Of a DNA stretch of 64,000 nt, positions 940-14,347 are shown in pieces. A program made the position numbers and the translations under genes. The notes under the pieces are model-generated. The model searched no databases, had not been told where the DNA came from, and was given only the letters and a program-made list of their open reading frames with translations. Location of the stretch: positions 1 to 64,000 of the IMG/VR virus record IMGVR_UViG_3300021962_000091; one strand, 5' to 3'. Within the stretch, counting starts at the first letter, position 1. Every line of letters begins with the position of its first letter. Source of the DNA: a virus.

Positions 940-1911
940 CTACATCACAAGAAATTCTGGCGGTAGCTCAAACTTGGCCTGAATTGTTTCTTCGAGTTGT
1001 TGCACTTCGCGGTTCCCTTCGTCGTAAATGGCACGACCATTGAGCGTGACCCCGCCAGGCATCTGCACCCCTTCATACTTCACAAGATTTTGTCCCCATT
1101 GTTTCTTGACCAAGGCCGTCGCATAGTCACGCAGGAATCGATCGGACCAGATTTTTGTGTAGTCGTTGGGATTGAGAATGCGCTGGGCTTCGACGACCAC
1201 AAAATCGCCGGCCTTGACGCGTTGCTGCCAGTCAATATCCAAATACAATTTATTGACGTAGCGATTGAACCGTAACTGCGTGTCACCAATAAACAAGTCA
1301 TTGAGCATTTCCATGTGAGAGCGGGTCAAGAAATATGAAATCACACTACTGCTGGACAGCCAACTCAAGTCATTCATCAAGAACTGATAGTTCCATGAAA
1401 ACAATCCCGTGCCGCGGTCCACTGCGAACCCATCGAGGGCAAGCACGCGATAGATGTTCAATACAAGGTCGGAGATAGGAATATATTGATTATCCCAATC
1501 ACCCGTGTTTACCGCACTGACTATTCCCGAGGCATTGGATGTTTGACCCACCAATGTCTCTCCCACGCGAAACACTTGGTTTTGATTGACCCGTGCATAC
1601 GTAAACATTACAGAGGTATTTGACGACTGCACGAACACCTTGGCGGCGGTGTTGCTCGTCTGACCAATTACCAGTTCGTTATTGCTAAACGTGCCGGTGG
1701 TATTGGTCGTAAAGACCACATTCGAATAGGAGATTTGATGCTTGAGGTAGACCTTCTCGGACGCCCCAAAGTGATAATCTTGAAAAAAGGCGAGCGCATC
1801 ATCGATACGCTCTTCCAATTGGTCATCCGCCACGTTGACTGTAATAACGGGCTCTCCTAACCGACGCTTGATGTAGGTTTTGAGCTGTGTGCGCGTAGTC
1901 GGTAATGCCAT
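940..1911 (-). CDS. 13: Neck protein gp13
   Basis: Component of the neck with gp14. The 323-residue product (T4 gp13 is 309) begins MALPTTRTQLKTYIKRRLG and continues with 'ITVNVADDQLEERIDDALAF' and a 'DYHFGASEKVYLKHQI' stretch, a pattern I recognise from gp13 of cyanophage-type T4 relatives. A beta-rich insertion at about residues 65-125, with 'GQTSN' repeated twice, is probably species-specific decoration. The ATG lies only 6 bases after a CTAAATA late-promoter motif and no Shine-Dalgarno sequence is visible, so the late transcript may be essentially leaderless. gp14 follows after 10 bases, so the two are probably co-transcribed. Confidence 0.85.
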   Translation of the reverse strand: MALPTTRTQLKTYIKRRLGEPVITVNVADDQLEERIDDALAFFQDYHFGASEKVYLKHQISYSNVVFTTNTTGTFSNNELVIGQTSNTAAKVFVQSSNTSVMFTYARVNQNQVFRVGETLVGQTSNASGIVSAVNTGDWDNQYIPISDLVLNIYRVLALDGFAVDRGTGLFSWNYQFLMNDLSWLSSSSVISYFLTRSHMEMLNDLFIGDTQLRFNRYVNKLYLDIDWQQRVKAGDFVVVEAQRILNPNDYTKIWSDRFLRDYATALVKKQWGQNLVKYEGVQMPGGVTLNGRAIYDEGNREVQQLEETIQAKFELPPEFLVM

Positions 1912-1968: not shown

Positions 1969-3072
1969 CTACTGCTCCGATGGGTCTACTTCAACAAACG
2001 GGACGATGGGTTTGAACGATACCGACGCGTCGTCCTGTTGTGCCGCGAGTTCCTCCATCGCAGCGGTGCCATGCACATATGCACTATTCGCTTTGAGTTT
2101 TTCTTTGGTTTCTTCGAGCCGCCGTAGTCGCTCTTCCCTGTATTGTAATGCGTTGGCATACAGCTCGTCAAACTTGTCCTGATGCACATCTTTGAGCATG
2201 GCGACCGACCGATCCACCACACTCTGTCCCCATTCCAAATACCCGTCAAAGAAGTCTACTCCAGCCGGAGTCAACTTGGCATGCTGACGAATTTCCGCCA
2301 ACCCATCTTCAATTTTGGGTAAATTACCCATTAAATAAAATGAGGAGGCTTGTTGTGGAGTAATTTTCGCCTCGGGGTTTTTCGTATCGAACCCCGGCAA
2401 ATTCAATGCGCACTGCAAGTCGGCCTCACAAAACATAATCCACGAATACACGGCTTGCACCACAGCGGACATTGGTCGTTTGATATCCCATCGAATGGGC
2501 GAATCATACAGTTCGTCTGGGCCATTCAGTAACAACTGGTTGTCGTGTGAATCGATTTCAATACCAATTGACTCCAGTCGTGCATGACCCACTTCATGAT
2601 AGATGCCTTCCGAGCATCCTTGCCAATCATTCGCGGACACATAGACGGCATTCAGCACTAGCCCATGTGTATTACTATGTTCCCGTAGACAACTCTTTAT
2701 TTCGTAGTGACCCGACGCACAGCCACGTCCTTGACGATCCATAAACTTGGCCCACTTCGCCCAGTATTCGTCCAAGAAATGTTGCAGCATATACCCACCT
2801 TCGGGCCAGGCCATCAAAAATCTATTGATGCCGGCCACAACCTCGGGGGTCATATATTCCATGCCATCTTTCATTGGATTTGACGGAGAGGCCACTTGAT
2901 CGGGAGTGTATTGTTTATCTTGACACACGGCAACCGCCCCATCGCACAGGGTCAGCTCGGTTGTAGGTGTGAGTTTTTTCCACCCATACTTTTCACGTAA
3001 AATTTCTCCAATTACGTGTGAATCATATCCATCAGCTTGGGGTTTGGCAACCCGTTTCCATTCAATTTGCAT
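1969..3072 (-). CDS. Putative HExxH-type 2-oxoglutarate-dependent peptide beta-hydroxylase
   Basis: The 367-residue protein carries YHEVGHARL (HExxH at residues 159-163). About 25 residues later comes 'LYDSPIRWDIKRPMSAVVQA', then an aromatic helix 'VYSWIMFCEADL'. This order (HExxH, then Ser-Pro-x-Arg, an Arg-Pro, and a hydrophobic helix) is how I remember the aKG-HExxH peptide beta-hydroxylase family associated with radical SAM RiPP clusters. Those enzymes use iron and 2-oxoglutarate. A plain zinc metallopeptidase is the main alternative, because HExxH alone does not separate them. The start is set at the second ATG of an ATGATG pair because GAGG lies at good spacing and the longer reading needs a TTG. 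A perfect TATAAATA lies upstream. It sits downstream of a His-x-Asp repeat protein and in the same block as two radical SAM enzymes, which suggests that the repeat proteins are its substrate. Confidence 0.6.
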   Translation of the reverse strand: MQIEWKRVAKPQADGYDSHVIGEILREKYGWKKLTPTTELTLCDGAVAVCQDKQYTPDQVASPSNPMKDGMEYMTPEVVAGINRFLMAWPEGGYMLQHFLDEYWAKWAKFMDRQGRGCASGHYEIKSCLREHSNTHGLVLNAVYVSANDWQGCSEGIYHEVGHARLESIGIEIDSHDNQLLLNGPDELYDSPIRWDIKRPMSAVVQAVYSWIMFCEADLQCALNLPGFDTKNPEAKITPQQASSFYLMGNLPKIEDGLAEIRQHAKLTPAGVDFFDGYLEWGQSVVDRSVAMLKDVHQDKFDELYANALQYREERLRRLEETKEKLKANSAYVHGTAAMEELAAQQDDASVSFKPIVPFVEVDPSEQ

Positions 3073-3087
3073 CATCCACCTCAATTA

Positions 3088-3095
3088 TATTTATA
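3088..3095 (-). promoter_or_regulatory. Late promoter TATAAATA before the HExxH gene
   Basis: Exact T4 late consensus, 15 bases before the chosen start, with GAGG between. It gives the enzyme its own late transcription start. Confidence 0.7.
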
Positions 3096-3103
3096 TGGCG
3101 ATA

Positions 3104-4636
3104 TTACACAACTTCAGGTTTATCGATATGTGTTACGTCACTGTGCAGGTCCGTGTGAGCCGTGTCCGTGTGTAAGTCGGTATGGGCCGTGTCGGTATGA
3201 AGATCGGTATGCGCCGTGTCGGTATGAAGATCGGTATGTGCCGTATCTGTGTGTAAGTCAGTATGCGGTACATCGCTGTGCGTATTGACGAACGACACGT
3301 CGCTATGACTATTCACAAAGGACACGTCGGTGTGAGACACAACTTGCGCCACGTTTGTATGCGAACTACTGAACGGAGCATCGTAATGCGCATTACTGTG
3401 CGAACTACTGAACGGAGCATCGTAATGCGCATTACTGTGCGAACTACTGAACGGCGCATCATAGTGCAAGTTGCTATGCGAACTGCTGAACGGGGCGTCA
3501 TAATGCGCACTACTGAACGGCGCATCATAGTGCAGGTTACTATGTGAGTTAACGAACGGAATGTCCTCGTGGGGGTAATCCGTATACGCATTACCAAACG
3601 GTGTATCAGTATACGCATTACCAAACGGTGGACTGTTTGTATAACAGGTGCCGTCAGTGTGGTCGGCATACTCTTGCCACGACGACGGAAAATTAACTAG
3701 CGTATCGGTATAACAGCCATCGTTATGGGGATACTCATACGCCGGACCTTCATCGTCATGAAAAACTTCATACGTTGCCGGATGATCGCTATAATCACCA
3801 TACGCCACGTCATTGTGACTGTTTACGAACGCCACATCGTAGTGTGAGTCAATAAAGTAACTATCACTAAACGCCACATCGTAATGTGCATTGCTATGCG
3901 AACTACTAAACGGGGCGTCATAATGCGAACTACTGAACGGCGCATCATAGTGCAGGTTACTGTGCGAACTGCTGAACGGCGCATCATAGTGCAGGTTACT
4001 GTGCGAACTGCTGAACGGCGCATCATAGTGCAAGTTGCTATGCGAACTACTAAACGGGGCATCGTAATGGGCATCACTATGTGCAATGTCGGTATGGGCA
4101 TCACTATGCGCGGTATCGGTGTGGGCATCAGTGTGGGCCGTGTCGGTATGCGCATCCGAATGCGATACGTCGCTATGGCTATTCACAAAGGACACGTCAT
4201 TATGGCTGTTGACGAACGACACGTCATTGTGGGTGTTGACAAAGGACACGTCATTATGGCTGTTGACGAACGATACGTCATTGTGGGTATTCACAAATGC
4301 CGTATCATTGTGCGCCCAATGTTCGTGCTGTGCAGCTCCAATAAAATGCAACTGCCCATTAGCACTCGACGGCGCATAGGACGTTTCGATCCACATCGAC
4401 CCCGCCAATGCACCCGCGCCGGCACGGTCGGCGACATACGGGCCATCCACATATCGCTGAACCCCCGAGGCATCAATATAGTGAATGGTGTTTGCCGACA
4501 TCCACATCGATCCGATTGCGGCACCTGCGGGAGATGCAACAGACGTGCCTAAAAATCGAAACTGCGTGTTACTGGCATTCATCCAATGTAGGTAAGATCC
4601 GCTAACCCACATCGAACCATTTGCTTCATTCGCCAT
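3104..4636 (-). CDS. Aromatic-x-Asp repeat fibre protein A
   Basis: A 510-residue protein with two parts. Residues 1-105 hold three related modules starting GSMW (GSMWVSGSYLHW, GSMWMSANTIHYIDASG, GSMWIETSYAPSS), a style seen in phage fibre or adhesin heads. The rest is low-complexity repeats: HNDVSFVNS units of 9 residues, HYDAPFSSSHSNL units of 13, and HTDLHTDTA units of 9. I count about 44 His-x-Asp triplets, and much of the remaining sequence is Phe/Tyr/His-x-Asp/Asn/Ser (FVN, FSS, FGN, YTD, YGD, HSN). A central non-repetitive part (HPATYEV..., GTCYTNSPPFGN) is shared with the paralogue at 11738-12946. It lies 23 bases after a fibre-like gene and just before the HExxH gene. I infer a virion fibre, and a likely substrate for the neighbouring enzymes. 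A metal-binding fibre without modification is the alternative. Confidence 0.7.
   Translation of the reverse strand: MANEANGSMWVSGSYLHWMNASNTQFRFLGTSVASPAGAAIGSMWMSANTIHYIDASGVQRYVDGPYVADRAGAGALAGSMWIETSYAPSSANGQLHFIGAAQHEHWAHNDTAFVNTHNDVSFVNSHNDVSFVNTHNDVSFVNSHNDVSFVNSHSDVSHSDAHTDTAHTDAHTDTAHSDAHTDIAHSDAHYDAPFSSSHSNLHYDAPFSSSHSNLHYDAPFSSSHSNLHYDAPFSSSHYDAPFSSSHSNAHYDVAFSDSYFIDSHYDVAFVNSHNDVAYGDYSDHPATYEVFHDDEGPAYEYPHNDGCYTDTLVNFPSSWQEYADHTDGTCYTNSPPFGNAYTDTPFGNAYTDYPHEDIPFVNSHSNLHYDAPFSSAHYDAPFSSSHSNLHYDAPFSSSHSNAHYDAPFSSSHSNAHYDAPFSSSHTNVAQVVSHTDVSFVNSHSDVSFVNTHSDVPHTDLHTDTAHTDLHTDTAHTDLHTDTAHTDLHTDTAHTDLHSDVTHIDKPEVV
3125..4320 (-). repeat. Coding tandem repeats (27- and 39-base units) in fibre protein A
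   Basis: Nearly identical in-frame units encode the HNDVSFVNS, HYDAPFSSSHSNL and HTDLHTDTA blocks. Unit identity is high at the DNA level, so copy number could change by slippage or recombination. Confidence 0.85.
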
Positions 4637-4659
4637 ATGTTTGTGTCCCGTTTAATGAA

Positions 4660-5820
4660 CTATGTCGCCCACAAGTTAGTGCCAACCGGCAGCACAAAAC
4701 GGCCGTTCGTCGTATTTAGAGTCATTTTTGCATTGACCGTCGCGACACCCGAGCACAATAATGTGCTGCTGAGTGTGGTCGCTCCCGTGAACGTTTTCGC
4801 ACCGGCAAAACTCTGTGTGGTCGTATCCACCACACCATTGGCACTCGCACTCGCCGACGACAACCGCGCCAACGGCACAGTTCCTGTACTCAGCGCCGAG
4901 GCATTGATACCCGTGGTCGAAATTGTGGTGAGAAGTGTTCCATAGTTTGTTCCGTCGCTCGTCACTTCCCAGTTATCGCCCATTTCATTCCAACGGAGGT
5001 AGGTGTTCGCCGACGATCCGCGATTGATTTCAATACCCGCATTTTCTGAAGGTGCGGTAATTGCAGGCAAATCCGCATTCAGCGCAATGATGTTATCACC
5101 GATTTGCAGATTGGTAGTATTGATGTAGGTCGTGGTTCCACTGACGGTCAAGCTTCCGGTAATCGTCACATCTTGGGCGAACGTTGCGTTGCCCGAGACA
5201 CCCAGCGTACCCAGCGCGTTTGCCGCGCCGGTAATACTCACGGTGTTACTGAATGATGTAGTATTCTGGAATGTCTTGTTCCCCACAAAGGTTTGGGTGT
5301 TCGTATCTACGACGCCGTTCGCACTCGTGTTTGCTGATGTTAATCGATCAAGCGGTACTGTCCCTGTCGCCAAGTTACTGGCATTGGTATAGTAGGAACC
5401 CGGCTGACTGTTGAGGTTCGTCGCGTTGGTGGCCTGAGTGGCCGTCGTAGCACTATTGACGTTCAGTGCTCCTTCGCTCTTACCAAAGGCATAGGTGCTG
5501 TTGTTGGCTGTAATGAGCGTATAGGTGCCTGACAACCGACCATCGGGCACGGTACCCGTGGCTAACGCCGAGGCATTCATTGTCGTCAGAGATACGCCGT
5601 TTCCCGAAAACACATTGGCGGTGACGGTGCCATTGGCAGTCACGGTCACAATCGTCATGGTGCCGTTGATGGATACGTTCCCCGAACTGGTTGCCGGTGT
5701 CGCATTTTGTGCAACAAGAATGTATTCGCTTGTGTTACCAACGGCGGTAATAATTTGGTTAGTCGTATTGACCCACTGACCAAAGGTATTCGATAACTGA
5801 ACTTGTGACGGTAAGGGCAT
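4660..5820 (-). CDS. Tail-fibre-like protein A with VTG/TVP repeats
   Basis: A 386-residue Thr/Asn/Ala-rich protein. The N-terminus (NTFGQWVNTTNQIITAVGNT) and C-terminus (GRFVLPVGTNLW) match the paralogue at 12950-14347. Between them are repeated beta motifs: ASALATGTVPDGRLSG, NLATGTVPLDRL and ALSTGTVPLARL, and 'VSGNATFAQDVTITGSLTVSG'-type strands (quoted in part). Such repeats are typical of trimeric phage fibres and appendages. GGAG precedes the ATG and a CTAAATA motif lies 40 bases upstream. It is followed after 23 bases by the His-x-Asp repeat protein A, so the two probably form one appendage or one operon. No receptor-binding domain is identifiable. Confidence 0.65.
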   Translation of the reverse strand: MPLPSQVQLSNTFGQWVNTTNQIITAVGNTSEYILVAQNATPATSSGNVSINGTMTIVTVTANGTVTANVFSGNGVSLTTMNASALATGTVPDGRLSGTYTLITANNSTYAFGKSEGALNVNSATTATQATNATNLNSQPGSYYTNASNLATGTVPLDRLTSANTSANGVVDTNTQTFVGNKTFQNTTSFSNTVSITGAANALGTLGVSGNATFAQDVTITGSLTVSGTTTYINTTNLQIGDNIIALNADLPAITAPSENAGIEINRGSSANTYLRWNEMGDNWEVTSDGTNYGTLLTTISTTGINASALSTGTVPLARLSSASASANGVVDTTTQSFAGAKTFTGATTLSSTLLCSGVATVNAKMTLNTTNGRFVLPVGTNLWAT

Positions 5821-5858
5821 AGCGTCTCCAATAAAGAAGAATAATTGATATTCCTCTC

Positions 5859-6944
5859 TTATTTAGTATTGTGACTCGTTATACCCCAGACCTCATCGAA
5901 TAGTTGACGAATAAGACGGTGTGGTGCGGCAGCGCGCATTCGTGACTGTGCGTTTTTCGCAATCGTCACCGCCGCCGACTGATTATCCCGCAGTTCTCGA
6001 TACCGTGCCAACAGCGCAGCGGCGGCCGCTTTGGGGTCGCGGGGGCGTCCCACATTATCCGTTCCCCCCGGTGCGTCCACGGCGGCATAGTGCAAGTCGG
6101 GAATCAACGGCACCATCAGAGGATGTCGCGGATAAGTAAACCCGATGGTCGCGCACCCTAATGTCCACAGCTCATGCTCTCGATTACACCACGGACCCCC
6201 CGCCAAAAATAAGTTCCAGCGATGCTGACTGGCGAGCTTCCACCAGTCCTCGCGGGCGAGCTTTTGATGGCGGTCCCACATAACCACTTCCTCGGGCGCA
6301 AGGTCATATAAGTACAACCCCACCTCACGCCAAGGGCGGCGTTCCCCTGACTCGTTAGTATAGGAATACGAATACGTCTCGGACGAACCAATAGTGCCGG
6401 CAAAAAACAACCGCAAGTCGGTCGCAGTTTCGGCGGGTAATGCCGGTAATGCATCCGCATACGCCACGGTCTCATCGGGATACATGGTAAAATACCCAAA
6501 GGGTCGATATTTTTCTGGAGCTTTGGTATGCTGATACACCCAGTCGCGTTCATACATGGTCATATAGACCGCGAGACACTTGGGGCTGGCCGACCATTCA
6601 CGACCAAACGTCGGATAGTCCTGCATGTCGATGAGACAAAACGTATCCGAGTCTACCTCTCGAATACAGACGACATCACTATTATACACCCCACGGGTGG
6701 TAATGCCATCAGAGATAAAAGATGAGATGTAATGTTCGTCGCGGTCGGGTGGCGCGATGGACTCTCCCGTAACTTCATATCCACAGGCATGAAGATATTG
6801 CGCCATCTCCGCGACGAGCACATAGTTATAGCGGCGATGCTGGTGCAACAGTGTCGTCGGAAGTTGATACACATTTCCGTCTGGCAATAGAATATCACCA
6901 GGCGGAAACGCATGAACATCATACGAGGTAATATGAAATTTCAT
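5859..6944 (-). CDS. Glycosyltransferase-like protein
   Basis: A 361-residue protein. The C-terminal half has an arrangement typical of exostosin-like or GT-B glycosyltransferases: 'LFFAGTIGSSETYSY' (strand-Gly), 'FLAGGPWCNREHELWTLGC' and 'HPLMVPLIPDLHYAAVDA', followed by a helix. I recognise the last segment as similar to the nucleotide-sugar-binding end of several sugar transferases. The N-terminal half (MKFHITSYDVHAFPPGD...) is unfamiliar. The start codon lies 2 bases after the stop of the Cys/methyltransferase gene, and its ribosome site GAGGTAAC sits in that gene's last codons, so the two are translationally linked. Its place inside the modification block suggests that it decorates a fibre or peptide. 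Acceptor and donor are unknown. Confidence 0.5.
   Translation of the reverse strand: MKFHITSYDVHAFPPGDILLPDGNVYQLPTTLLHQHRRYNYVLVAEMAQYLHACGYEVTGESIAPPDRDEHYISSFISDGITTRGVYNSDVVCIREVDSDTFCLIDMQDYPTFGREWSASPKCLAVYMTMYERDWVYQHTKAPEKYRPFGYFTMYPDETVAYADALPALPAETATDLRLFFAGTIGSSETYSYSYTNESGERRPWREVGLYLYDLAPEEVVMWDRHQKLAREDWWKLASQHRWNLFLAGGPWCNREHELWTLGCATIGFTYPRHPLMVPLIPDLHYAAVDAPGGTDNVGRPRDPKAAAAALLARYRELRDNQSAAVTIAKNAQSRMRAAAPHRLIRQLFDEVWGITSHNTK
5860..5866 (-). promoter_or_regulatory. Late promoter motif CTAAATA for fibre A
   Basis: CTAAATA on the minus strand, overlapping the stop of the upstream glycosyltransferase-like gene and 40 bases before the fibre ATG. Confidence 0.55.
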
Positions 6945-6945
6945 G

Positions 6946-8316
6946 TTACCTCATATCAATAATACCTACAGCGACGTCACGGGCGGATTCGTTGCATATC
7001 ACGGTGAGTTGATCGACAGAAAACCCTGCCATCTCTACCCATTCCTGTAGTGGATGTTTTCGCAGGTTGTCCCCATACACATAGACAAGATGAAGTTTAT
7101 ACGGGTCGAGTGCGGCCCGCGTGGCCGTAGCTTCGTCCTCACTCATCTCCGTCAGTCGAACGGGGCACGATACCACGACGGTGCTATCCGGCTGAAACCA
7201 CTCGACCCACGTCAAATCTTGAATGCGCGCCGCACTCCATTTTCCGACTAACCCCGACTGCGCCGACGTGATAGCGGCCTCATTAATATCCACTCCACCA
7301 ATTTTAATGTCGGGTCGATTCAGCTTGAGTGTCTTGAGCAGACGACCGTTTCCGCATCCCAAATCAAGCACCGCACAATTTTCTGGGGCAAGAGTTTTCA
7401 ACTCGTGTAGAATCGGCGCGTGTGACTCTAACATGCCTGTATAGGAAGAAAATCCGTTATGCTTCCAAATATCTTCCGTGGGTTTGGAGTAGACCCCCTT
7501 GCGATGAAAATATCGTTTATCGGTCGGTGGTGCCCAATCGGTGCGCGTCGAAATCTTGAGTGCTGGTCCGACAATTTCACCGATACCATTGACGCCACTC
7601 CATCGAACCGGCCACGACAGCACCGCATCAATAATTTTTGCTTCTTCAACAAAGCCGTGCTTCTTGGCCGCCTCGCGCGTTTTTCGTCCAATTTCTACCG
7701 TGGCTTCACATTGGAATGAGCACGGCAAATGGGATACCCACCGAATCGCTTTCCACCGCCACAACATATTCGCTTCGATAGGACCATCCGCATTCCCCGT
7801 TTCGGCATACTGCTCCCATGTCGTATCCACCTGACCCGCGCCCCATGTGCGATGGAAAAATTCACGACAGCACTTAGGATAGCCCAAGACCTGACCGAGC
7901 ACTTCGTTATTGTGGGCAATGTCTGGGGTATTCGAGACGAGCGAGAGCACTTCGGGTCGCACAATCAGGACACGATACTCCCACGGCTTGGACGGATCAA
8001 ATCCCGACGCTCCACTGGCAGACGAGTATCCATCAGACGACTGTCGGTTGACTTGCGTCACCGGCACAGCGGTAAGTCCATGAGATGCCGCACGGGCGCC
8101 CACCGTCATCAATTGGTCGGGTCGCACAAACGTATACATGCCGGGACGAATGCCCTCAATGACGGTCAGCCATTCAATCTCCTCACGCGCTTTTGAGACT
8201 TTATCAAATAACGGAAGCCAATATTCTCGCTCGGTCATTGAGGCCCATGCCCATCGAGTCCACTCGGGCAACACGGGTCGGTTGGGGTCTAATACTGAAG
8301 TGGTAATTGCGGCCAT
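6946..8316 (-). CDS. Cys-motif domain fused to class I SAM methyltransferase
   Basis: A 456-residue two-domain protein. The N-terminal part contains 'GQVLGYPKCCREFFHRTWG' and then 'VSHLPCSFQCEATVEIGRK'. Paired CC and CxxxC motifs of this kind occur in a poorly understood family (it resembles DUF483, from memory) and could bind metal. The C-terminal part, from about residue 315, has the SAM-binding glycine loop VLDLGCGNGRLLKTL, then 'KIGGVDINEAAI' and a 'VVVSCPV' strand, a standard Rossmann methyltransferase. I chose the second ATG as start because AAGGA abuts the first one and is well spaced for the second. The gene begins 2 bases after radical SAM enzyme 1. This linkage suggests a further modification step (methylation) on the same substrate. 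The target residue is unknown. Confidence 0.6.
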   Translation of the reverse strand: MAAITTSVLDPNRPVLPEWTRWAWASMTEREYWLPLFDKVSKAREEIEWLTVIEGIRPGMYTFVRPDQLMTVGARAASHGLTAVPVTQVNRQSSDGYSSASGASGFDPSKPWEYRVLIVRPEVLSLVSNTPDIAHNNEVLGQVLGYPKCCREFFHRTWGAGQVDTTWEQYAETGNADGPIEANMLWRWKAIRWVSHLPCSFQCEATVEIGRKTREAAKKHGFVEEAKIIDAVLSWPVRWSGVNGIGEIVGPALKISTRTDWAPPTDKRYFHRKGVYSKPTEDIWKHNGFSSYTGMLESHAPILHELKTLAPENCAVLDLGCGNGRLLKTLKLNRPDIKIGGVDINEAAITSAQSGLVGKWSAARIQDLTWVEWFQPDSTVVVSCPVRLTEMSEDEATATRAALDPYKLHLVYVYGDNLRKHPLQEWVEMAGFSVDQLTVICNESARDVAVGIIDMR

Positions 8317-8317
8317 A

Positions 8318-9679
8318 TTATTCATCCTTTACAAGTGACATATCCGTGTGATCACCATGCGGCACCATATCCGTATGGTCGCCGTGACTATTTGCATGCT
8401 GACCGTATTGATGTGAATTCATATATGTATTAGCGTCCATTCCCGACTGCACGGCGCTGACCGCAGCGTTCAAATGAATACTCTTTCCCTGTGACCATAC
8501 AGTATACATCAATTTTTCAATTTTTTCTCTGTCGGGGGATAATGTAATCGGCAATTCTCCCACGCCGCGCAGTTTCTTTTCTTGAGACGCGAATTGTTCC
8601 TTGAGCACCGCACAATGCGTAGACCGTAATCTCCAGTCTCCTTCATACCCGTCTTCAAATTCTTCACCCGTGCCGGGACAGTGGCCTGTGCACACCACAA
8701 AAAAGCGACATCCCTGACACCCCCCGTGTTCTTGGGGTGTCACATACAGCGACAACTGTCGAATGTGCGCGCGGGTGCTTGGAAACCCCTCACCAATTTG
8801 CCATCGAGCGTTATATCCAAACCCCTCTCCTGGCAACCAATCAATACCATCCTTGACGGCTCGGGTGCAATTGCCCGGCGCACCGTCAGCACCAATACCC
8901 TGCACGGCGGCCGTGCTCCAGCCATCACACGCCGCATATACACACATTGCTTTGGACGCATCGCCGCGTAACAGTTGAATGGCTTCATCGAAGTTCAAAA
9001 ACTTCATCTGGGTCAGTTCGCGACTTAGCTCAGCCAATTCTTTTATCGCCTGTTTTAATTCTGCATCTGGCAAATACCATTTACCCGCATGATGATCCAT
9101 TTCAAGAAAATGGAAATTAATAAAACACACGCCTTTTTGGTCTAACTCACGAATCCACTGCTTAAATCGAGGCAATACCGCCGGTGCGCAGTTTCCCGAG
9201 TGGAGCGTCACGATAAGTGTTGGTCCGTGTCCCCAATAGGCCCCAGGCTCCTGTTGAAGCGCACACACCATATCAATTGCTCGTAGCGTTTTTTCAGTGG
9301 CTTTACGTGTTGCTTCAATTGTGCCCGCCCATCGAGAATCATTCAGGTCATCGGGACCGTCCAAACTAATACCGACCTGTGTATGATACTTGCGAAACAA
9401 GTCAATATGTTTGGGAGTAATCAATGATCCGTTTGTCTGGAGTCCTGATTGACCCCATTGGTCAAACGAGAGCTTTAATAGCTCTTCGAGGTCTTTCAGG
9501 TTCAACAATAACGGTTCGCCGCCAAACAGTTGCCAAAACCCCTTTGACTGTGACGCCGCTTGAAGAACTTTTTCGCGTTGATATTTTGCCGTTGGAGTGA
9601 CGCGACGACCCGCTTCTTCATAGCAGTAGTCGCAGCGTAAATTACAAGTAACGCCAACGGGTAAAACTTCAATTGACAT
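8318..9679 (-). CDS. Radical SAM/SPASM peptide-modifying enzyme 1
   Basis: A 453-residue protein. Radical SAM cluster CNLRCDYC (Cys12, Cys16, Cys19), GGEP at about 53-56, 'SGLQTNG' and 'GISLDGPD' follow the normal order of the fold. A SPASM-type region for auxiliary Fe-S clusters is visible: Cys246, Cys251, Cys271, then GGCQGCRFFVVCTGHC (Cys321, 324, 330, 334) and Cys356. Peptide-modifying relatives include sulfatase maturases and cyclophane-forming enzymes. The last 25 residues carry HGDHTD twice, the same His-x-Asp signature as the fibre proteins. It is a paralogue of the next gene upstream (6-base gap) and precedes the methyltransferase fusion. I infer that it modifies His/aromatic-x-Asp motifs. 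The reaction type is not shown by sequence. Confidence 0.85.
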   Translation of the reverse strand: MSIEVLPVGVTCNLRCDYCYEEAGRRVTPTAKYQREKVLQAASQSKGFWQLFGGEPLLLNLKDLEELLKLSFDQWGQSGLQTNGSLITPKHIDLFRKYHTQVGISLDGPDDLNDSRWAGTIEATRKATEKTLRAIDMVCALQQEPGAYWGHGPTLIVTLHSGNCAPAVLPRFKQWIRELDQKGVCFINFHFLEMDHHAGKWYLPDAELKQAIKELAELSRELTQMKFLNFDEAIQLLRGDASKAMCVYAACDGWSTAAVQGIGADGAPGNCTRAVKDGIDWLPGEGFGYNARWQIGEGFPSTRAHIRQLSLYVTPQEHGGCQGCRFFVVCTGHCPGTGEEFEDGYEGDWRLRSTHCAVLKEQFASQEKKLRGVGELPITLSPDREKIEKLMYTVWSQGKSIHLNAAVSAVQSGMDANTYMNSHQYGQHANSHGDHTDMVPHGDHTDMSLVKDE

Positions 9680-9685
9680 ACACTA

Positions 9686-11707
9686 TCACCATAATTTTTT
9701 TTCTGACCCATCAGGTAAAACGGCGCTTCGCGTGGGATCAGTATATGTTTTTTGTGTCACATCAGTATGGTCCCCGTGTTTATCGCCGTGCGGCCGATAC
9801 TGATTAGATCCAGATGCTTGCAGAGTTTTATTCCATGCGGGCTGCAAATTTTCCAAATGGGATGGGTGATCGTCAATATGATCCCCATGCTCAATAACAT
9901 CGGTATGGTCACCGTGCGGCACCATATCAACGTGGTCGCCATGAGGAACAGTGTCTCCCTCGACACACTCCACCGGCGCCGGCGGCAGAGGCGCAGGGGG
10001 TGACGATGGCCCTGTCCACAGGGTTTTTAATTTAGCGACCCACGCCCATACAACCGCCATTCCACGACGAACAATAGCGATCACCCGTGCGACACGGGAT
10101 GGGGATTGGTGCGTCAATATTACAGGAAGTGTCATATCTGTATGATCACCATGCGGCACCACATCGGTGTGGTCGCCATGGGGAACCGTCACATCATCCG
10201 TGTGGTCGCCATGCGATGTTGTTGGTATCAACATGTCGGTATGATCGCCGTGTGGGATTATCGTTTCCACGGGTTCGACCACCGGAGCGACTCCCGTGTC
10301 TACATGGTCACCGTGGGGAACGTCGCGAATCGTCGTATCGACGTGATCACCATGCGCATCGCCGTGTGGAATGTTTGCTACTTCGCGCGGCGGATTTGCA
10401 TCATAATGATCCCCGTGAAGCTGCCCGCCCAAACCCGATGTAATATGTTCGTACTTCATTTTTCCCTCGACAATTTTAAGGGCCGTCGCTAAACTGATTT
10501 CTTTATTTTCCACCCATCCTCGATACATGAGGTGCTCGATCTCTTTTAATTTTGGATGATGTGATAGGGGCAGTTCACCGACATCAATAAGACGACGCTC
10601 GGCTTCTTCTAACATATCCTTCCATGTTTGACAGTAGGTCGATCGTAACCGCCAATCCCCATAGGTGCCGTGCGATTCTTCACCCGTGCCGGGGCAATGA
10701 CCCGTGCACATAGACCAAAACCGACAATCCTTACATCCGCCGTGCTCCTGTGGTGTCACATAGAGAGAAAGCTGTCGTTCATGATAGCGCCGCGAGTCTT
10801 TGAACGTTCCAATTTGCCAGGGCGCATACACCCCCTGATTCTCTGGGCCTTCGGCGGGAATCCAATCGATTCCGTCCTTATTCGTGCGGGTGCAATGCGA
10901 CGGGGATCCATCCCCCTCTAATCCTTGCACCGCCGACGTGTTCCACGGATCACACGAATGCCAGACGCACATGACATCATCCGCCCCACGAAGTCGTTTG
11001 ACATATTCGGCAAAGTTGGTGATTTGCGTGGTTTCAAATTCGGTGCTCAACTCCCACAAATCCAACATGACTTCTTTCATTCGGTCGTGGGGCACATACC
11101 ATTCACTATCTTTCGTCGCTTCGTGATCCAGTTCCATTGTATGAAAATTGATACTACGAATACCTCGACGATCGCAGTCCACAAGCCATGCCCGCATCTT
11201 TGGCCAGGCTTCGACTGAGCAATTTTTCGCATGAAGCGTAATAATGAGGCTGGGAATTAATACCGGATTATTTTGTTCTTTGGCCGCCGTCAGCAGCATA
11301 TCAATCGCGGCGTGCGTTCGTGCCGTCGCTTTTCGTGTGGCGTCCAATGTTCCTGCCCAGCGGGAGTCATTAAGTTCGTCGGGACCATCCAAACTAATAC
11401 CCACGTTTGTTCTATATTTGGTAAATAATTCAATGTGGGCGGGAGTGATTAATGTGCCGTTGGTCTGGACACCGGAACTTCCCCATTTATCGTGGGCGAG
11501 TTTGAGTAACTCTTCTAATTCTGGTAGAGGAATAATTAATGCTTCGCCGCCAAATAAGGACCAGCGTCCCGTCACATGCTCTAACTGGGCCAAGACTTTC
11601 GTGCGATCATATTTGTGCACGGGCTGAATGTCTCGAATTGGCTGCTCGTAGCAATATGCACATCGTAAATTGCACGTCACTCCCACGGGTCGAACTTCAA
11701 TACTCAT
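9686..11707 (-). CDS. Radical SAM/SPASM enzyme 2 with long HGDHxD repeat tail
   Basis: A 673-residue paralogue of radical SAM enzyme 1, with Cys12/16/19 (CNLRCAYC), GGEA in place of GGEP, 'SGVQTNG', 'GISLDGPD' and a SPASM block 'GGCKDCRFWSMCTGHC'. From about residue 435 it extends into a tail of roughly 230 residues with about a dozen HGDHxD units (HGDHYD, HGDHVD, HGDHTD, HGDHID). The tail includes a Pro-rich linker and one hydrophobic stretch 'VARVIAIVRRGMAVVWAWV' that could be an amphipathic or membrane helix. The tail looks like a substrate region fused to the enzyme. AGAGGAT precedes the ATG, and CTAAATA lies 18 bases upstream of it. It lies between a repeat fibre gene and enzyme 1. The repeats might be self-modified, might guide substrate docking, or might place the enzyme in the virion. 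Confidence 0.85.
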   Translation of the reverse strand: MSIEVRPVGVTCNLRCAYCYEQPIRDIQPVHKYDRTKVLAQLEHVTGRWSLFGGEALIIPLPELEELLKLAHDKWGSSGVQTNGTLITPAHIELFTKYRTNVGISLDGPDELNDSRWAGTLDATRKATARTHAAIDMLLTAAKEQNNPVLIPSLIITLHAKNCSVEAWPKMRAWLVDCDRRGIRSINFHTMELDHEATKDSEWYVPHDRMKEVMLDLWELSTEFETTQITNFAEYVKRLRGADDVMCVWHSCDPWNTSAVQGLEGDGSPSHCTRTNKDGIDWIPAEGPENQGVYAPWQIGTFKDSRRYHERQLSLYVTPQEHGGCKDCRFWSMCTGHCPGTGEESHGTYGDWRLRSTYCQTWKDMLEEAERRLIDVGELPLSHHPKLKEIEHLMYRGWVENKEISLATALKIVEGKMKYEHITSGLGGQLHGDHYDANPPREVANIPHGDAHGDHVDTTIRDVPHGDHVDTGVAPVVEPVETIIPHGDHTDMLIPTTSHGDHTDDVTVPHGDHTDVVPHGDHTDMTLPVILTHQSPSRVARVIAIVRRGMAVVWAWVAKLKTLWTGPSSPPAPLPPAPVECVEGDTVPHGDHVDMVPHGDHTDVIEHGDHIDDHPSHLENLQPAWNKTLQASGSNQYRPHGDKHGDHTDVTQKTYTDPTRSAVLPDGSEKKLW

Positions 11708-11724
11708 CGTATATCCTCTGTCAT

Positions 11725-11731
11725 TATTTAG
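11725..11731 (-). promoter_or_regulatory. Late promoter motif CTAAATA for the radical SAM genes
   Basis: CTAAATA 17 bases from the ATG of radical SAM enzyme 2, with AGAGGAT between. It suggests the modification enzymes are made late, together with virion proteins. Confidence 0.6.
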
Positions 11732-11737
11732 TATGTG

Positions 11738-12946
11738 TTATATCGACTGTGGTTTGTCAATATGCGTGATGTCGCTATGGAGGTCCGTGTGTGCCGTATC
11801 GGTATGCGCATCACTGTGCGCCGTGTCGGTATGGAGGTCGGTATGGGCCGTGTCGGTATGGAGGTCGGTATGGGCCGTGTCGGTATGGAGGTCGGTATGG
11901 GCCGTGTCGGTATGGAGGTCGGTATGGGCCGTATCGGTATGGAGGTCGGTATGGGCCGTATCGGTGTGCGCATCACTATGCGCGGTATCTGTGTGCAGGT
12001 CAGTATGCGAATTCACAAACTCCTGATCGGAATATTCGTCGGCGTGCGATACGTCGCTATGACTATCAATGAACGGTGTATCAGTATACGCATTACTAAA
12101 TGGTGGACTGTTTGTATAACAGGTGCCGTCGGTGTGGGCGACATACAACTCAAATCCACCGTACTGCTCCGGAAACACAACTGTCTCATCGGTATGACAA
12201 AAATCGTTATGGGGATACTCACACCACGGACCTTCTACATCGTTATGACAAACTTCATACGTTGCCGGATGATCGCTATAATCACCATACGGCACATCAG
12301 TGTGATCGTTATAATATTCATCCGTGTGTAAGTCGGTATGCGATACGTCGCTATGCGTATTGTTGAACGACACATCGGTGTGGTCGTCAAGATGTGTGTT
12401 CACGAAGGACACGTCATTATGCGTGTTGACAAACGATACATCATTATGCGTGTTGACAAACGATACATCATTATGCGTGTTGACAAACGACACGTCGCTA
12501 TGGCTGTTGACAAACGATACATCATTATGCGTGTTGACAAACGACACGTCGCTATGGCTGTTGACGAACGATACATCATTATGCGTATTGACAAACGACA
12601 CGTCGCTATGACTGCTCACAAATGCCGTATCGTCGTGCACCCAATTTTCATATTGTGTTTCGCCTAAAAAGTGTAGCTGCCCGTTAGCACTCGACGGCGC
12701 ATAGGCAGTCTCAATCCACATCGATCCGGCTTTTCCCGTTTGTGGCGCAACGGGAGCACCGTTTGCGCGACGTTCGACTCCCGAGGCGTCAATATAATGC
12801 ACATTATTCGCCTCAATCCAAATGCTTCCGGCTTTGGCACCTGCGGGACTTCCGAGAGACGTGCCATCATAACGGAATCGCGTATTGGCAGAATTTCTCC
12901 AATAGAGGTAAATCCCCTCAATCCACATCGACCCGTTAGCTGCCAT
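11738..12946 (-). CDS. Aromatic-x-Asp repeat fibre protein B
   Basis: A 402-residue paralogue of the protein at 3104-4636. The N-terminal 100 residues hold three GSMW/GSIW modules (GSMWIEGIYLYW, GSIWIEANNVHYIDASG, GSMWIETAYAPSS). The remainder alternates HNDVSFVNT/HSDVSFVNS 9-residue units and HTDLHTDTA units, with a central part containing HPATYEVCHND and GTCYTNSPPFSN. I count about 40 His-x-Asp triplets, interleaved with FVN, FSN, YTD, YGD and YSD triplets. It ends THIDKPQSI, close to the THIDKPEVV end of protein A. It lies 4 bases after fibre B and 30 bases before radical SAM enzyme 2. It is a candidate substrate of the radical SAM and HExxH enzymes and presumably an outer virion fibre. 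Confidence 0.7.
   Translation of the reverse strand: MAANGSMWIEGIYLYWRNSANTRFRYDGTSLGSPAGAKAGSIWIEANNVHYIDASGVERRANGAPVAPQTGKAGSMWIETAYAPSSANGQLHFLGETQYENWVHDDTAFVSSHSDVSFVNTHNDVSFVNSHSDVSFVNTHNDVSFVNSHSDVSFVNTHNDVSFVNTHNDVSFVNTHNDVSFVNTHLDDHTDVSFNNTHSDVSHTDLHTDEYYNDHTDVPYGDYSDHPATYEVCHNDVEGPWCEYPHNDFCHTDETVVFPEQYGGFELYVAHTDGTCYTNSPPFSNAYTDTPFIDSHSDVSHADEYSDQEFVNSHTDLHTDTAHSDAHTDTAHTDLHTDTAHTDLHTDTAHTDLHTDTAHTDLHTDTAHTDLHTDTAHSDAHTDTAHTDLHSDITHIDKPQSI
11755..12640 (-). repeat. Coding tandem 27-base repeats in fibre protein B
   Basis: Two arrays of 27-base units: HTDLHTDTA units (about 11760-12010) and HNDVSFVNT/HSDVSFVNS units (about 12370-12640). Copies are almost identical in DNA, so length variation between isolates is likely. 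Confidence 0.85.
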
Positions 12947-12949
12947 GTT

Positions 12950-14347
12950 TTATACACTCCACTTATCTGCGCCCACCGGCAATACCAGACGACCATACGT
13001 GCTATTGTTCAAGTCCACGGTGTTTGCGACGTATAGTATACCACTAACGTTGACAGCACCGCTGAACGTCGCCGCTCCAGCGGAGGACAGGGTCATGCGC
13101 GTCGTGTTGTTTGTCAGAAACGCCAGGTCGCCCGTAGCTCCCGTGATCCCAATTTGCATCCCGGCTGTTGTGGCTGACAAAATGTTTGTAAAGTCGGTGC
13201 CGGTGAACGAGAGTTCATTAGTGCCCGATGCGTTGACGATACTGACTGGACCCGTGAATGTTTTGGCCCCCGCAAAACTTTGCGTCGTGGTAGTCACATA
13301 CCCATTGGCCGTGGTATTCGCTTCGGGAAACGATGTTCCAATCACGCGCCAACGAGTAATCGTTGTATCATAATACAAATGTGCGGCGCCCTGTCGCGGC
13401 AACAACGCGTTGGTGTTGGCCGCACAATAAAAGGCATTTGTTGTTGCCCCAGTATTCGCGTGCTCTAAAAATACATCCGTATCACCAACATTGACCAGAA
13501 TCAACGATCGCGGCTGTGCCGTATTCGCCTGTTCCACGCCGGCGATAGACTTGGAGACCGCACTAGAAAACCGATAGACCGAGGTGTTGGCCTGAACCGG
13601 CAGCGGAGCGGCGGTGCCGGCACCCGTTAATGCCGCATCGGTTTCAATAAACGTGCTCTTCCATTCAATCGGACCCCCAAGCACCATGCCCGCATTGAAG
13701 GTCGTTGTGCCGGTGATGGCCAAAGTATTACTGAGCGTGGTGGCACCGGTGACGCCGAGAGTATTACTGAGCGTGGCCGCGCCCGTGACCCCGAGGGTAT
13801 TACTGAGCGTGGTGGCGCCTGTCACGGCTAATGTATTACTAAACGTGGTGTTGCCCGTGACGGCAAGAGTATTACTAAACGTGGTGTTCCCCGTGACGGC
13901 AAGAGTATTACTAAACGTAGTATTACCCGTGACGACAATGGTATTACTAAACGTCGCACCAAGTGTGACCGCCAAATTTCCTGTGAGGGTTGTTTTTCCG
14001 TTAATAACCGTATTGGGAGCAATCGTTAAATCGGTTCCTGATATAACCGTATTAGTCGCGGCGATGCTGACGTTAGACGCAATGATAGCTGCGGTATCAC
14101 TCACCCCATTTGTGGTTAATTTAAACACTGGTGTGGTACAGCCCGTGGTCAATCCCCCGAGCACCACGTTGCCGTTTGCCACTAACGTGGCGGTCGTCAC
14201 GGTTCCAGTGACCGATACATTTCCTTGTGCGGTATTATTGACCAAGACATACGCACTGGTATTGGACACATGGCTAATTAAATTATTCGTCGCGTCAAAC
14301 CATGTATTAAACGTATCGGTTGGTTGAATTATGGGCGGTAAAGACAT
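12950..14347 (-). CDS. Tail-fibre-like protein B with VTG-TFSNTL repeats
   Basis: A 465-residue beta-repeat protein. Seven to eight copies of a 12-residue unit (TGNTTFSNTLAV and variants such as TGATTLSNTLGV) run through the middle. They are followed by a region with 'SRSLILVNVGDTDVFLEHA'-like strands (approximate) and a C-terminus GRLVLPVGADKW that matches fibre A. The N-terminus (DTFNTWFDATNNLISHV) also matches fibre A, so the two fibre genes are paralogues. A CTAAATA motif lies 31 bases upstream, inside the next gene. It ends 4 bases before the repeat protein B, repeating the fibre plus His-x-Asp arrangement at 3104-5820. It is probably a trimeric appendage subunit. The receptor is unknown. 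Confidence 0.65.
   Translation of the reverse strand: MSLPPIIQPTDTFNTWFDATNNLISHVSNTSAYVLVNNTAQGNVSVTGTVTTATLVANGNVVLGGLTTGCTTPVFKLTTNGVSDTAAIIASNVSIAATNTVISGTDLTIAPNTVINGKTTLTGNLAVTLGATFSNTIVVTGNTTFSNTLAVTGNTTFSNTLAVTGNTTFSNTLAVTGATTLSNTLGVTGAATLSNTLGVTGATTLSNTLAITGTTTFNAGMVLGGPIEWKSTFIETDAALTGAGTAAPLPVQANTSVYRFSSAVSKSIAGVEQANTAQPRSLILVNVGDTDVFLEHANTGATTNAFYCAANTNALLPRQGAAHLYYDTTITRWRVIGTSFPEANTTANGYVTTTTQSFAGAKTFTGPVSIVNASGTNELSFTGTDFTNILSATTAGMQIGITGATGDLAFLTNNTTRMTLSSAGAATFSGAVNVSGILYVANTVDLNNSTYGRLVLPVGADKWSV

Follow-up and report, generated by a model that had tools for sequence, protein, structure and literature searches.

A tail-fibre block of a T4-like phage combines His-x-Asp triplet arrays with radical SAM/SPASM enzymes: a candidate module for virion-protein maturation

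Introduction

Radical SAM cyclophane chemistry is so far known from small peptides. In the His-Xaa-Ser system (HxsABCD), a protein with a His triplet repeat is encoded with radical SAM genes. The sulfatase maturase oxidises a residue and forms no cross-link. The triceptide synthases XncB, OscB, MscB, YxdB, HaaB, and YhhB link an aromatic residue at i with the beta carbon at i+2, and i to i+2 cross-links have been described with His, Tyr, Phe, or Trp as the aromatic partner (PMC11002830). Dynobactin contains one C-C and one C-N cross-link (PMC11002830). For the ChlB/ChlH pair, the available text of PMC12636437, citing a Nat Chem 2024 paper, describes cyclophane formation followed by beta-hydroxylation of Asp and His.

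In this study, a stretch of 64,000 nucleotides from a T4-like phage (the window; positions 1 to 64,000 of IMG/VR record IMGVR_UViG_3300021962_000091) was analysed. One of its gene blocks is probably a virion-protein maturation module, in which the triplets of the fibres would be cross-linked by radical SAM enzymes. No prior report of HxD arrays or of HxD fibre modification was found in the literature covered, which took in few subscription journals or preprint servers.

Results

The block in the tail-fibre slot

The block lies on the minus strand in the tail-fibre slot. It encodes two array proteins, a pair of radical SAM/SPASM enzymes with intact motifs, a protein of the aKG-HExxH type, and a fusion of DUF483 with a methyltransferase (Table 1). 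All of these main elements were confirmed where the initial annotation had placed them. The gene at 5859–6944 had also been labelled glycosyltransferase-like; Pfam, NCBIfam, and PHROGs gave no family match, and this label is not supported. Synteny and gene order suggest that the array product likely sits in the virion. In a BFVD structure search, the N-terminal domain gave a single significant match, a 342-aa phage protein, and the rest was noise. The fibre B array was unfolded in the AlphaFold model, with pLDDT mostly about 40.

Table 1. Features of the block and its context in the window.
Feature	Position	Strand	Length (aa)	Remarks
Head-tail adaptor Ad2-like neck protein	940..1911	-		Context
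aKG-HExxH-type protein, HEVGH	1969..3084	-	371	Candidate peptide beta-hydroxylase; accessory
Fibre A	3104..4636	-	510	N-terminal GSxW beta domain, then array; proposed substrate
Fibre A triplet array	3122..4312	-		Residues 109-505; 44 HxD plus FxN/FxS/HxN triplets
Fibre-like protein without HxD array	4660..5820	-	386	Neighbour
Protein with no family assigned	5859..6944	-	361	Kept in the L002 relative
DUF483 + class I methyltransferase fusion	6946..8325	-	459	Conserved Cys152, Cys153, Cys202, Cys206
Radical SAM/SPASM enzyme B	8318..9679	-	453	Paralogue of A; short HGDHTD tail
Radical SAM/SPASM enzyme A	9686..11707	-	673	
Enzyme A C-terminal tail	9689..10417	-		About residues 431-673; HGDHTD type
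Fibre B	11738..12946	-	402	Fibre A architecture; C-terminal HxDxPxxV conserved; proposed substrate
Fibre B triplet array	11756..12637	-		Residues 104-397; 40 HxD
Fibre-like protein without HxD array	12950..14347	-	465	Weak PHROG tail fibre match; neighbour
Phage protein, phrog_358	14632..21255	-	2207	Context; beside baseplate wedge genes

Triplet arrays

Roughly 44 and 40 His-x-Asp triplets had been reported for the two fibres, and exact counting returned 44 HxD for fibre A and 40 for fibre B. Shuffled sequences of the same composition (1000) contained on average 6.3 and 5.2 HxD, respectively, with a maximum of 13. Asp is located at +2 of 75% of the His residues in fibre A and of 93% in fibre B, and at other offsets within 5 residues of His it reached 28% at most. 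Triplets follow one another at irregular distances (3, 4, 5, 9, and others). Therefore, the triplet is the unit rather than a coil.

Part of the array in the window is made up of DNA tandem repeats with periods of 27 and 39 bp, and the length of fibre A differs between the near-identical contig L001 (484 aa) and the window (510 aa). Both observations favour a simple tandem repeat expansion at the DNA level, with the triplets under no selection. However, both His codons and both Asp codons are in use, distinct triplet 9-mers number 25 and 19 in the window arrays, and 42 different 9-mers were counted among 101 triplets in other phages. True simple repeats also never occurred with radical SAM (0/12). 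Such an expansion is hardly credible. As a full explanation it was refuted by the Asp +2 profile in the diverse arrays, and this profile, the shuffles, the simple repeats, and the triplet diversity together ruled out chance or simple repeat as the array origin.

An offset test was performed with 54 non-redundant phage arrays. Asp was found at +2 of 93% of the His residues. For Tyr, Phe, and Trp, the figure was 165/600 (27.5%), whereas for non-aromatic residues it was 239/7628 (3.1%), giving an odds ratio of 11.7. The odds ratios at every other offset, -2 included, were from 0.6 to 1.7. In the bacterial arrays, Asp occupied +2 of Tyr, Phe, or Trp in 47/96 cases and of non-aromatic residues in 55/1525 (odds ratio 26). 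As judged from sequence, this one-way enrichment is the pattern that marks substrates of three-residue cyclophane synthases.

His and Asp serve as metal ligands, and iron-binding phage fibres with HxH are known. The arrays might thus be metal-binding or beta-structured fibres working unmodified, with radical SAM and DUF483 doing something else. This explanation is quite improbable, because Asp is enriched after Phe, Tyr, and Trp as well and in one direction only (odds ratio at -2, 1.2), the spacing is irregular, and radical SAM is present in 69/83 array records against 0/62 of the comparison records. The aromatic +2 signature and its direction indicate neither metal binding nor beta-strand alternation, and with the irregular spacing they removed the metal-only and beta-strand readings as the main explanation.

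Enzymes of the block

Both radical SAM/SPASM enzymes recognised in the initial annotation matched PF04055 (5e-15 and 3e-12) with intact motifs. The CX3CX2C motif and the SPASM pattern CX2CX5CX3C are present in both and invariant across 22 relatives. The two paralogues share 54% identity. In the model search they resembled the peptide maturases AmcB, DynA, PapB, and YhhB and the sulfatase maturase, and their match to ChlB was 4.6e-14. Among the features of a triceptide system, the radical SAM and SPASM motifs, an i/i+2 substrate, and gene linkage were found, and membership in a curated family was not. Against the curated cyclophane-forming families AmcB, YhhB, GrrM, FxsB, and XyeB, the enzymes scored 27–60 bits compared with cut-offs of 310–450, which would weigh against the cross-linking of triplets. 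None of the Hxs models was among the best 25 matches listed.

Among relatives of known structure, the best full-length match was the anaerobic sulfatase maturase anSME (4k36, E 1.3e-20). By analogy, a relative that forms no cross-link would also weigh against cross-linking. The enzymes do not belong to that family (TIGR03942, 63.6 bits vs a cut-off of 349). At the position following the SPASM cysteine, the alignment shows Thr in the window enzymes and the catalytic Asp in the sulfatase maturase.

Radical SAM might instead modify the triplets by another reaction, namely by forming a dynobactin-like bond between the His nitrogen and the Asp beta carbon, by epimerisation, or by an oxidation that leaves no cross-link. 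DynA is indeed among the nearest curated families, and the oxidation performed by the sulfatase maturase involves no cross-linking. We consider these reactions unlikely. A nitrogen bond does not fit the enrichment of Phe-x-Asp and Trp-x-Asp, since Phe has no side-chain nitrogen; epimerisation needs no aromatic residue two positions earlier; and the Thr described above argues against oxidation of the sulfatase maturase type.

Triplets of the fibre type, absent from the initial annotation, were also seen in the C-terminal tails of both radical SAM enzymes. Enzyme A contains 24 HxD over the whole protein, almost all within the tail, and enzyme B contains 5.

The HExxH protein was verified by a match to TIGR04267 (aKG-HExxH peptide beta-hydroxylase; E 2.5e-6), although its 27.6 bits are below the curated cut-off of 40. 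The same model matched all 19 homologues at E 0.001, the best with 1.4e-26. The protein has an HEVGH motif; H163, E164, H167, and R203 are invariant among the homologues, and its profile matched ChlH (8s5f) with 9.5e-6. These features make it a candidate peptide beta-hydroxylase. It was present in 9/50 phage records, which ruled it out as a core part of the module. Accordingly, of the two enzyme families that had been paired with the fibres, radical SAM stood and HExxH turned out to be optional.

The remaining enzyme had been described as a Cys-motif methyltransferase fusion. Its class I methyltransferase part was recovered, and its Cys-motif part is a putative DUF483 domain (PF04467, 24.8 bits vs a gathering score of 25; 14/34 homologues match at E 0.001). 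Its structural model was good (pLDDT 90.8), and the structure matches listed fall to methyltransferases. The DUF483 protein is carried by 41/50 phage records. By gene content, DUF483 is the constant partner, and the core of the module is composed of substrate, radical SAM, and DUF483.

Co-occurrence and distribution

In a repeat-first search, viral records were picked by the His-x-Asp repeat alone and then checked for radical SAM. The radical SAM family was found in 69/83 records with diverse HxD arrays, in 0/12 with simple tandem repeats, and in 0/50 controls. Most of the 14 array records without radical SAM are short fragments; the larger ones are one of 46 kb (L137) and two of 64 and 78 kb. 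These 14 records would weigh against maturation, and 3 of them carry the HExxH protein. Loss of both enzyme families with the repeats kept, which had been named as the outcome contrary to modification, was thus mostly not observed. The array gene adjoins the maturase gene in most viral loci, and it is directly upstream of radical SAM in unrelated phages, Thermus phages included.

The module is not limited to the window phage. It is also present in the cultured Thermus phages phiLo, phiMa, and Cumys and in many bacteria. Fusions of radical SAM with DUF483 were identified at 13 loci, and 3 loci encode bacterial proteins that unite radical SAM, DUF483, and HExxH in one chain. A Bradyrhizobium operon adjoins a RiPP radical SAM C-methyltransferase (607 bits vs a cut-off of 282). 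The bacterial array proteins have export-signal-like N-termini. On the other hand, no array protein was obvious nearby at about 24/54 bacterial loci, which would weigh against maturation, and a substrate gene looked for at Bradyrhizobium, Nannocystis, and some other loci was not found.

In the available text of PMC11437467, modification of phage DNA by radical SAM and DUF483 was proposed for Cumys and phiMa because some cyanobacterial homologues adjoin deazapurine genes. We regard this as very improbable. The third gene of the module encodes an HxD array protein, a point absent from that text, and the bacterial versions come with export-signal-like array proteins, a peptide hydroxylase homologue, and a RiPP maturase.

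Discussion

The modification of the fibres by radical SAM at aromatic-x-polar triplets, as put forward in the initial annotation, was strongly supported by the co-occurrence, the +2 enrichment, the fusions, and the RiPP operon. From the genomic evidence, it is very likely that the radical SAM enzymes act on the arrays. By analogy with known maturases, the product is likely a cyclophane. A mechanical role of the modified fibre as a stiff shaft is a guess.

In the proposed mechanism, the array proteins would belong to the tail as fibre-like components, attached through an N-terminal domain and carrying behind it 40 to 50 or more aromatic-x-Asp/Asn/Ser triplets. Triplet after triplet would be processed by the radical SAM/SPASM enzymes, which would bond the aromatic ring at i with the beta carbon at i+2, with a loss of 2 Da each, and a string of three-residue cyclophanes would result. 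DUF483 would be an obligatory partner, perhaps in substrate binding or a further metal-dependent step. Where encoded, the HExxH protein may add beta-hydroxyls to His or Asp. The duplicated radical SAM in the window clade may go with the extra Phe-x-Asn/Ser triplets. The end product would be a stiff, protease-resistant shaft.

The recurrence of the gene set in other phages and in bacteria suggests a whole class of virion proteins that undergo chemical modification. The broader proposal, on which we are evenly divided, is an unrecognised and widespread class of modified proteins comprising fibres of phages and exported proteins of bacteria. Each chain would have from dozens to about a hundred of its triplets converted into cyclophanes by enzymes of a new radical SAM/SPASM family, for which DUF483 would be an obligatory partner and which would sometimes also modify their own HxD tail, and covalently stiffened structural rods would result. 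If true, cyclophane chemistry would operate on a large scale on viral structural proteins and exported bacterial proteins. It would be a new form of covalent maturation in phage tail assembly and would give DUF483 a role. The published DNA-modification guess for the Thermus phage module would be corrected, and a genetically encoded route to stiff peptide rods would be available. The carriers of the module include cultured phages of Thermus thermophilus HB8.

Cumys and phiMa, whose array proteins measure 343 or 342 aa, have the same three-gene module; in the available text of PMC11437467, its third product is an unknown protein next to radical SAM and DUF483, and the HxD array is not mentioned. 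The HxsABCD repeat has Ser as the third residue, whereas the repeat here is His-x-Asp. The sulfatase maturase anSME is the best full-length structure match, yet the window enzymes are far below its family cut-off and differ at the residue that follows the SPASM cysteine. One of the nearest curated models is DynA, but it has a single small peptide as substrate, and the window enzymes reach 59–63 bits against its family cut-off of 450. The ChlB/ChlH pair, as far as it is described in the available text, is a fused system in which a radical SAM maturase likewise comes together with a hydroxylase of the aKG-HExxH family, both homologous to the window enzymes. However, its precursor peptide is short, its radical SAM is only distantly similar, DUF483 is not mentioned in that text, and the system is non-phage. 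The triceptide systems share radical SAM/SPASM enzymes, the acceptance of His, Tyr, Phe, and Trp, and third residues that include Asp, Asn, or Ser (PMC11002830). The window enzymes differ from their synthases as a separate family below all curated cut-offs with a DUF483 partner. Triceptides contain few rings in small peptides, whereas dozens of triplets are found here in large fibre-like proteins.

Results

Fibre A and fibre B, the two array proteins of the block (see the table), contain 44 and 40 His-x-Asp (HxD) triplets, in agreement with the initial annotation. The arrays are not a product of chance: shuffled sequences gave mean counts of 6.3 and 5.2, respectively, with a maximum of 13. Across 19 array proteins, Asp was found at +2 of His in 63-100% of cases, and Pro was almost absent from the middle position (2/877). 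The distance between successive triplets was irregular (n = 858: 3 in 91 cases, 4 in 157, 5 in 212, 9 in 122, and 6 to 8 in 44-48 each). Therefore, the conserved unit is the triplet itself. Although the array DNA in the window is partly a tandem repeat, synonymous codons are used and the triplets are diverse, which shows that selection acts on the array residues. The fibre A version in the near-identical contig L001 (7174-8628) is 26 residues shorter; therefore, array length varies by expansion and contraction. In the AlphaFold model, the first 105 residues of the fibre were mostly confident and the array was unfolded, a low confidence that alone proves nothing. A C-terminal motif close to HxDxPxxVG (window 11738-11770) is common to the GSxW-type fibres of many phages (alignment A7) and is perhaps a recognition or assembly signal.

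Features of the block in order of transcription
Feature	Position	Strand	Order
Fibre-like protein	14347-12950	minus	1
Fibre B	11738-12946	minus	2
Radical SAM A	9686-11707	minus	3
Radical SAM B	8318-9679	minus	4
DUF483-methyltransferase	8325-6946	minus	5
Protein of unknown family	6944-5859	minus	6
Fibre-like protein	5820-4660	minus	7
Fibre A	3104-4636	minus	8
HExxH protein	3084-1969	minus	9 (last)

If the enzymes are builders of three-residue cyclophanes, aromatic residues besides His should also precede Asp by two positions. For this test, 54 non-redundant phage arrays were used, and each Asp already part of an HxD was excluded. Asp stood at +2 of Tyr/Phe/Trp in 165/600 cases and of non-aromatic residues in 239/7628 (odds ratio 11.7), whereas offsets -4, -3, -2, -1, +1, +3 and +4 gave odds ratios of 0.6 to 1.7. 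In 11 bacterial arrays the values at +2 were 47/96 and 55/1525 (odds ratio 26), and -3, -2 and +3 also showed signals, though weaker ones. The p-values (5e-87 for phage, 2e-35 for bacterial arrays) assume that positions are independent and therefore exaggerate the certainty. Arrays working as metal-binding proteins would not predict Phe-x-Asp. Beta-strand alternation would give a signal at -2 too, where the phage arrays stayed within the above range. The arrays are highly likely to be substrates of the module's radical SAM family, and a cross-link joining residues i and i+2 is fairly probable.

Co-occurrence was assessed from the repeats, avoiding an enzyme-first start, by scanning IMG/VR with DNA patterns of four spaced HxD. 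At least 97 loci with HxD-rich frames were found and 95 were tested as whole records, some of them close relatives and thus not fully independent. Records were split by triplet diversity with a threshold set after the hits were seen, the simple repeats being plain on inspection. Among the matches listed, radical SAM was present in 69/83 genuine-array records and 0/12 simple-repeat records; it was absent from 50/50 control records of the same scans lacking an HxD-rich protein. DUF483 was found in 41/50 tested records and HExxH in 9/50. The proposed association of arrays with radical SAM held for most array records; the 14 negatives are mostly short fragments, and three of these 14 (L101, L134, L139) hold an HExxH gene. 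Two of these negatives share the fibre of L236, whose 105-kb record holds radical SAM. Collagen-like phage proteins (GPPGPPGPAG) with a short HxD array at the end were seen at L187, L212, L232 and L236.

At their C-termini, both radical SAM enzymes carry tails of the HGDHTD type, which contain the same triplets as the fibres; radical SAM A has 24 HxD in total and radical SAM B has 5. Such tails occur on Thermus phage and some bacterial homologues, and many others have none. The proteins match the models of sulfatase maturase and of four peptide maturases (AmcB, DynA, PapB, YhhB), always far below cut-off, and therefore form a separate family. In the tree, the radical SAM duplication predates the divergence of the window, L002, L064 and L065, which retained both copies, and phage clades are intermingled with bacterial ones. 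In the two-enzyme clade of the window, Asn or Ser follows Phe at +2 in 87/112 cases, compared with a background level of 17.8% in single-enzyme phages. This suggests, from only one clade and from repeats that are tandem duplicates, that the Phe triplets passed to one of the paralogues.

Among 50,697 phage records (E 1e-3), radical SAM A matched only the Thermus phages phiLo, phiMa and Cumys. In phiMa and Cumys, the gene directly upstream of radical SAM encodes an array protein (342 or 343 aa; 53 or 54 HxD), and DUF483 is encoded downstream; phiLo has three array proteins (55, 101 and 72 HxD). The radical SAM core profile (A3) retrieved 25 viral loci and 54 bacterial loci from many phyla. DUF483 adjoins or is fused to radical SAM in nearly all of those not cut by a contig end. 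The fusion is found at 13 loci, and Nannocystis (L020, L028, L032) joins radical SAM, DUF483 and HExxH in a single 882-888-aa protein. The DUF483 cysteines 152, 153, 202 and 206 (window numbering) are conserved, the third being His in Thermus versions, and may hold a putative metal site; the DUF483-methyltransferase gave a good AlphaFold model.

An HExxH homologue was present in 26/54 bacterial loci and an array protein nearby in about 30/54; neighbourhood inspection identified no substrate in about 24/54. The bacterial array proteins include short peptides, proteins whose N-termini resemble signal sequences and, at the upper end, 900-1400-aa proteins with HxD-rich C-termini. In Pseudoalteromonas (L026, 8957-9241; L027), a 94-aa protein upstream of radical SAM has a stretch in which Asp alternates with hydrophobic residues, surrounded by HTD, HSD and HTD, and is a candidate small precursor. 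In Bradyrhizobium (L043, 8073-13430, and others), the radical SAM, DUF483 and HExxH genes adjoin a RiPP maturation radical SAM C-methyltransferase (607 bits, cut-off 282). No HxD array was found within 9 kb, and this module likely has a different substrate.

Discussion

The block lies in a virus record of 66,748 bases between an Ad2-like neck protein on its left and T4-like baseplate wedge, hub and tube-cap proteins on its right. In pelagimyophages, a variable host-recognition cluster that includes tail fibres, and in some cases radical SAM cassettes, is situated between VrlC and the gp14 neck gene (PMC7029224), and the block occupies a position comparable to this slot. It is quite likely that the phage array proteins are virion components. 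For Cumys, PMC11437467 presents the module as made up of an unknown protein, DUF483 and radical SAM, and proposes a role in DNA modification.

In a structure-linked sequence search, the best match of the radical SAM proteins was sulfatase maturase (1.3e-20, nearly full length), followed by ChlB (4.6e-14). TIGR04267 matched 19/19 HExxH proteins, and the HExxH protein profile also matched ChlH. In this known pair, ChlB makes cyclophanes and ChlH afterwards hydroxylates Asp and His (PMC12636437).
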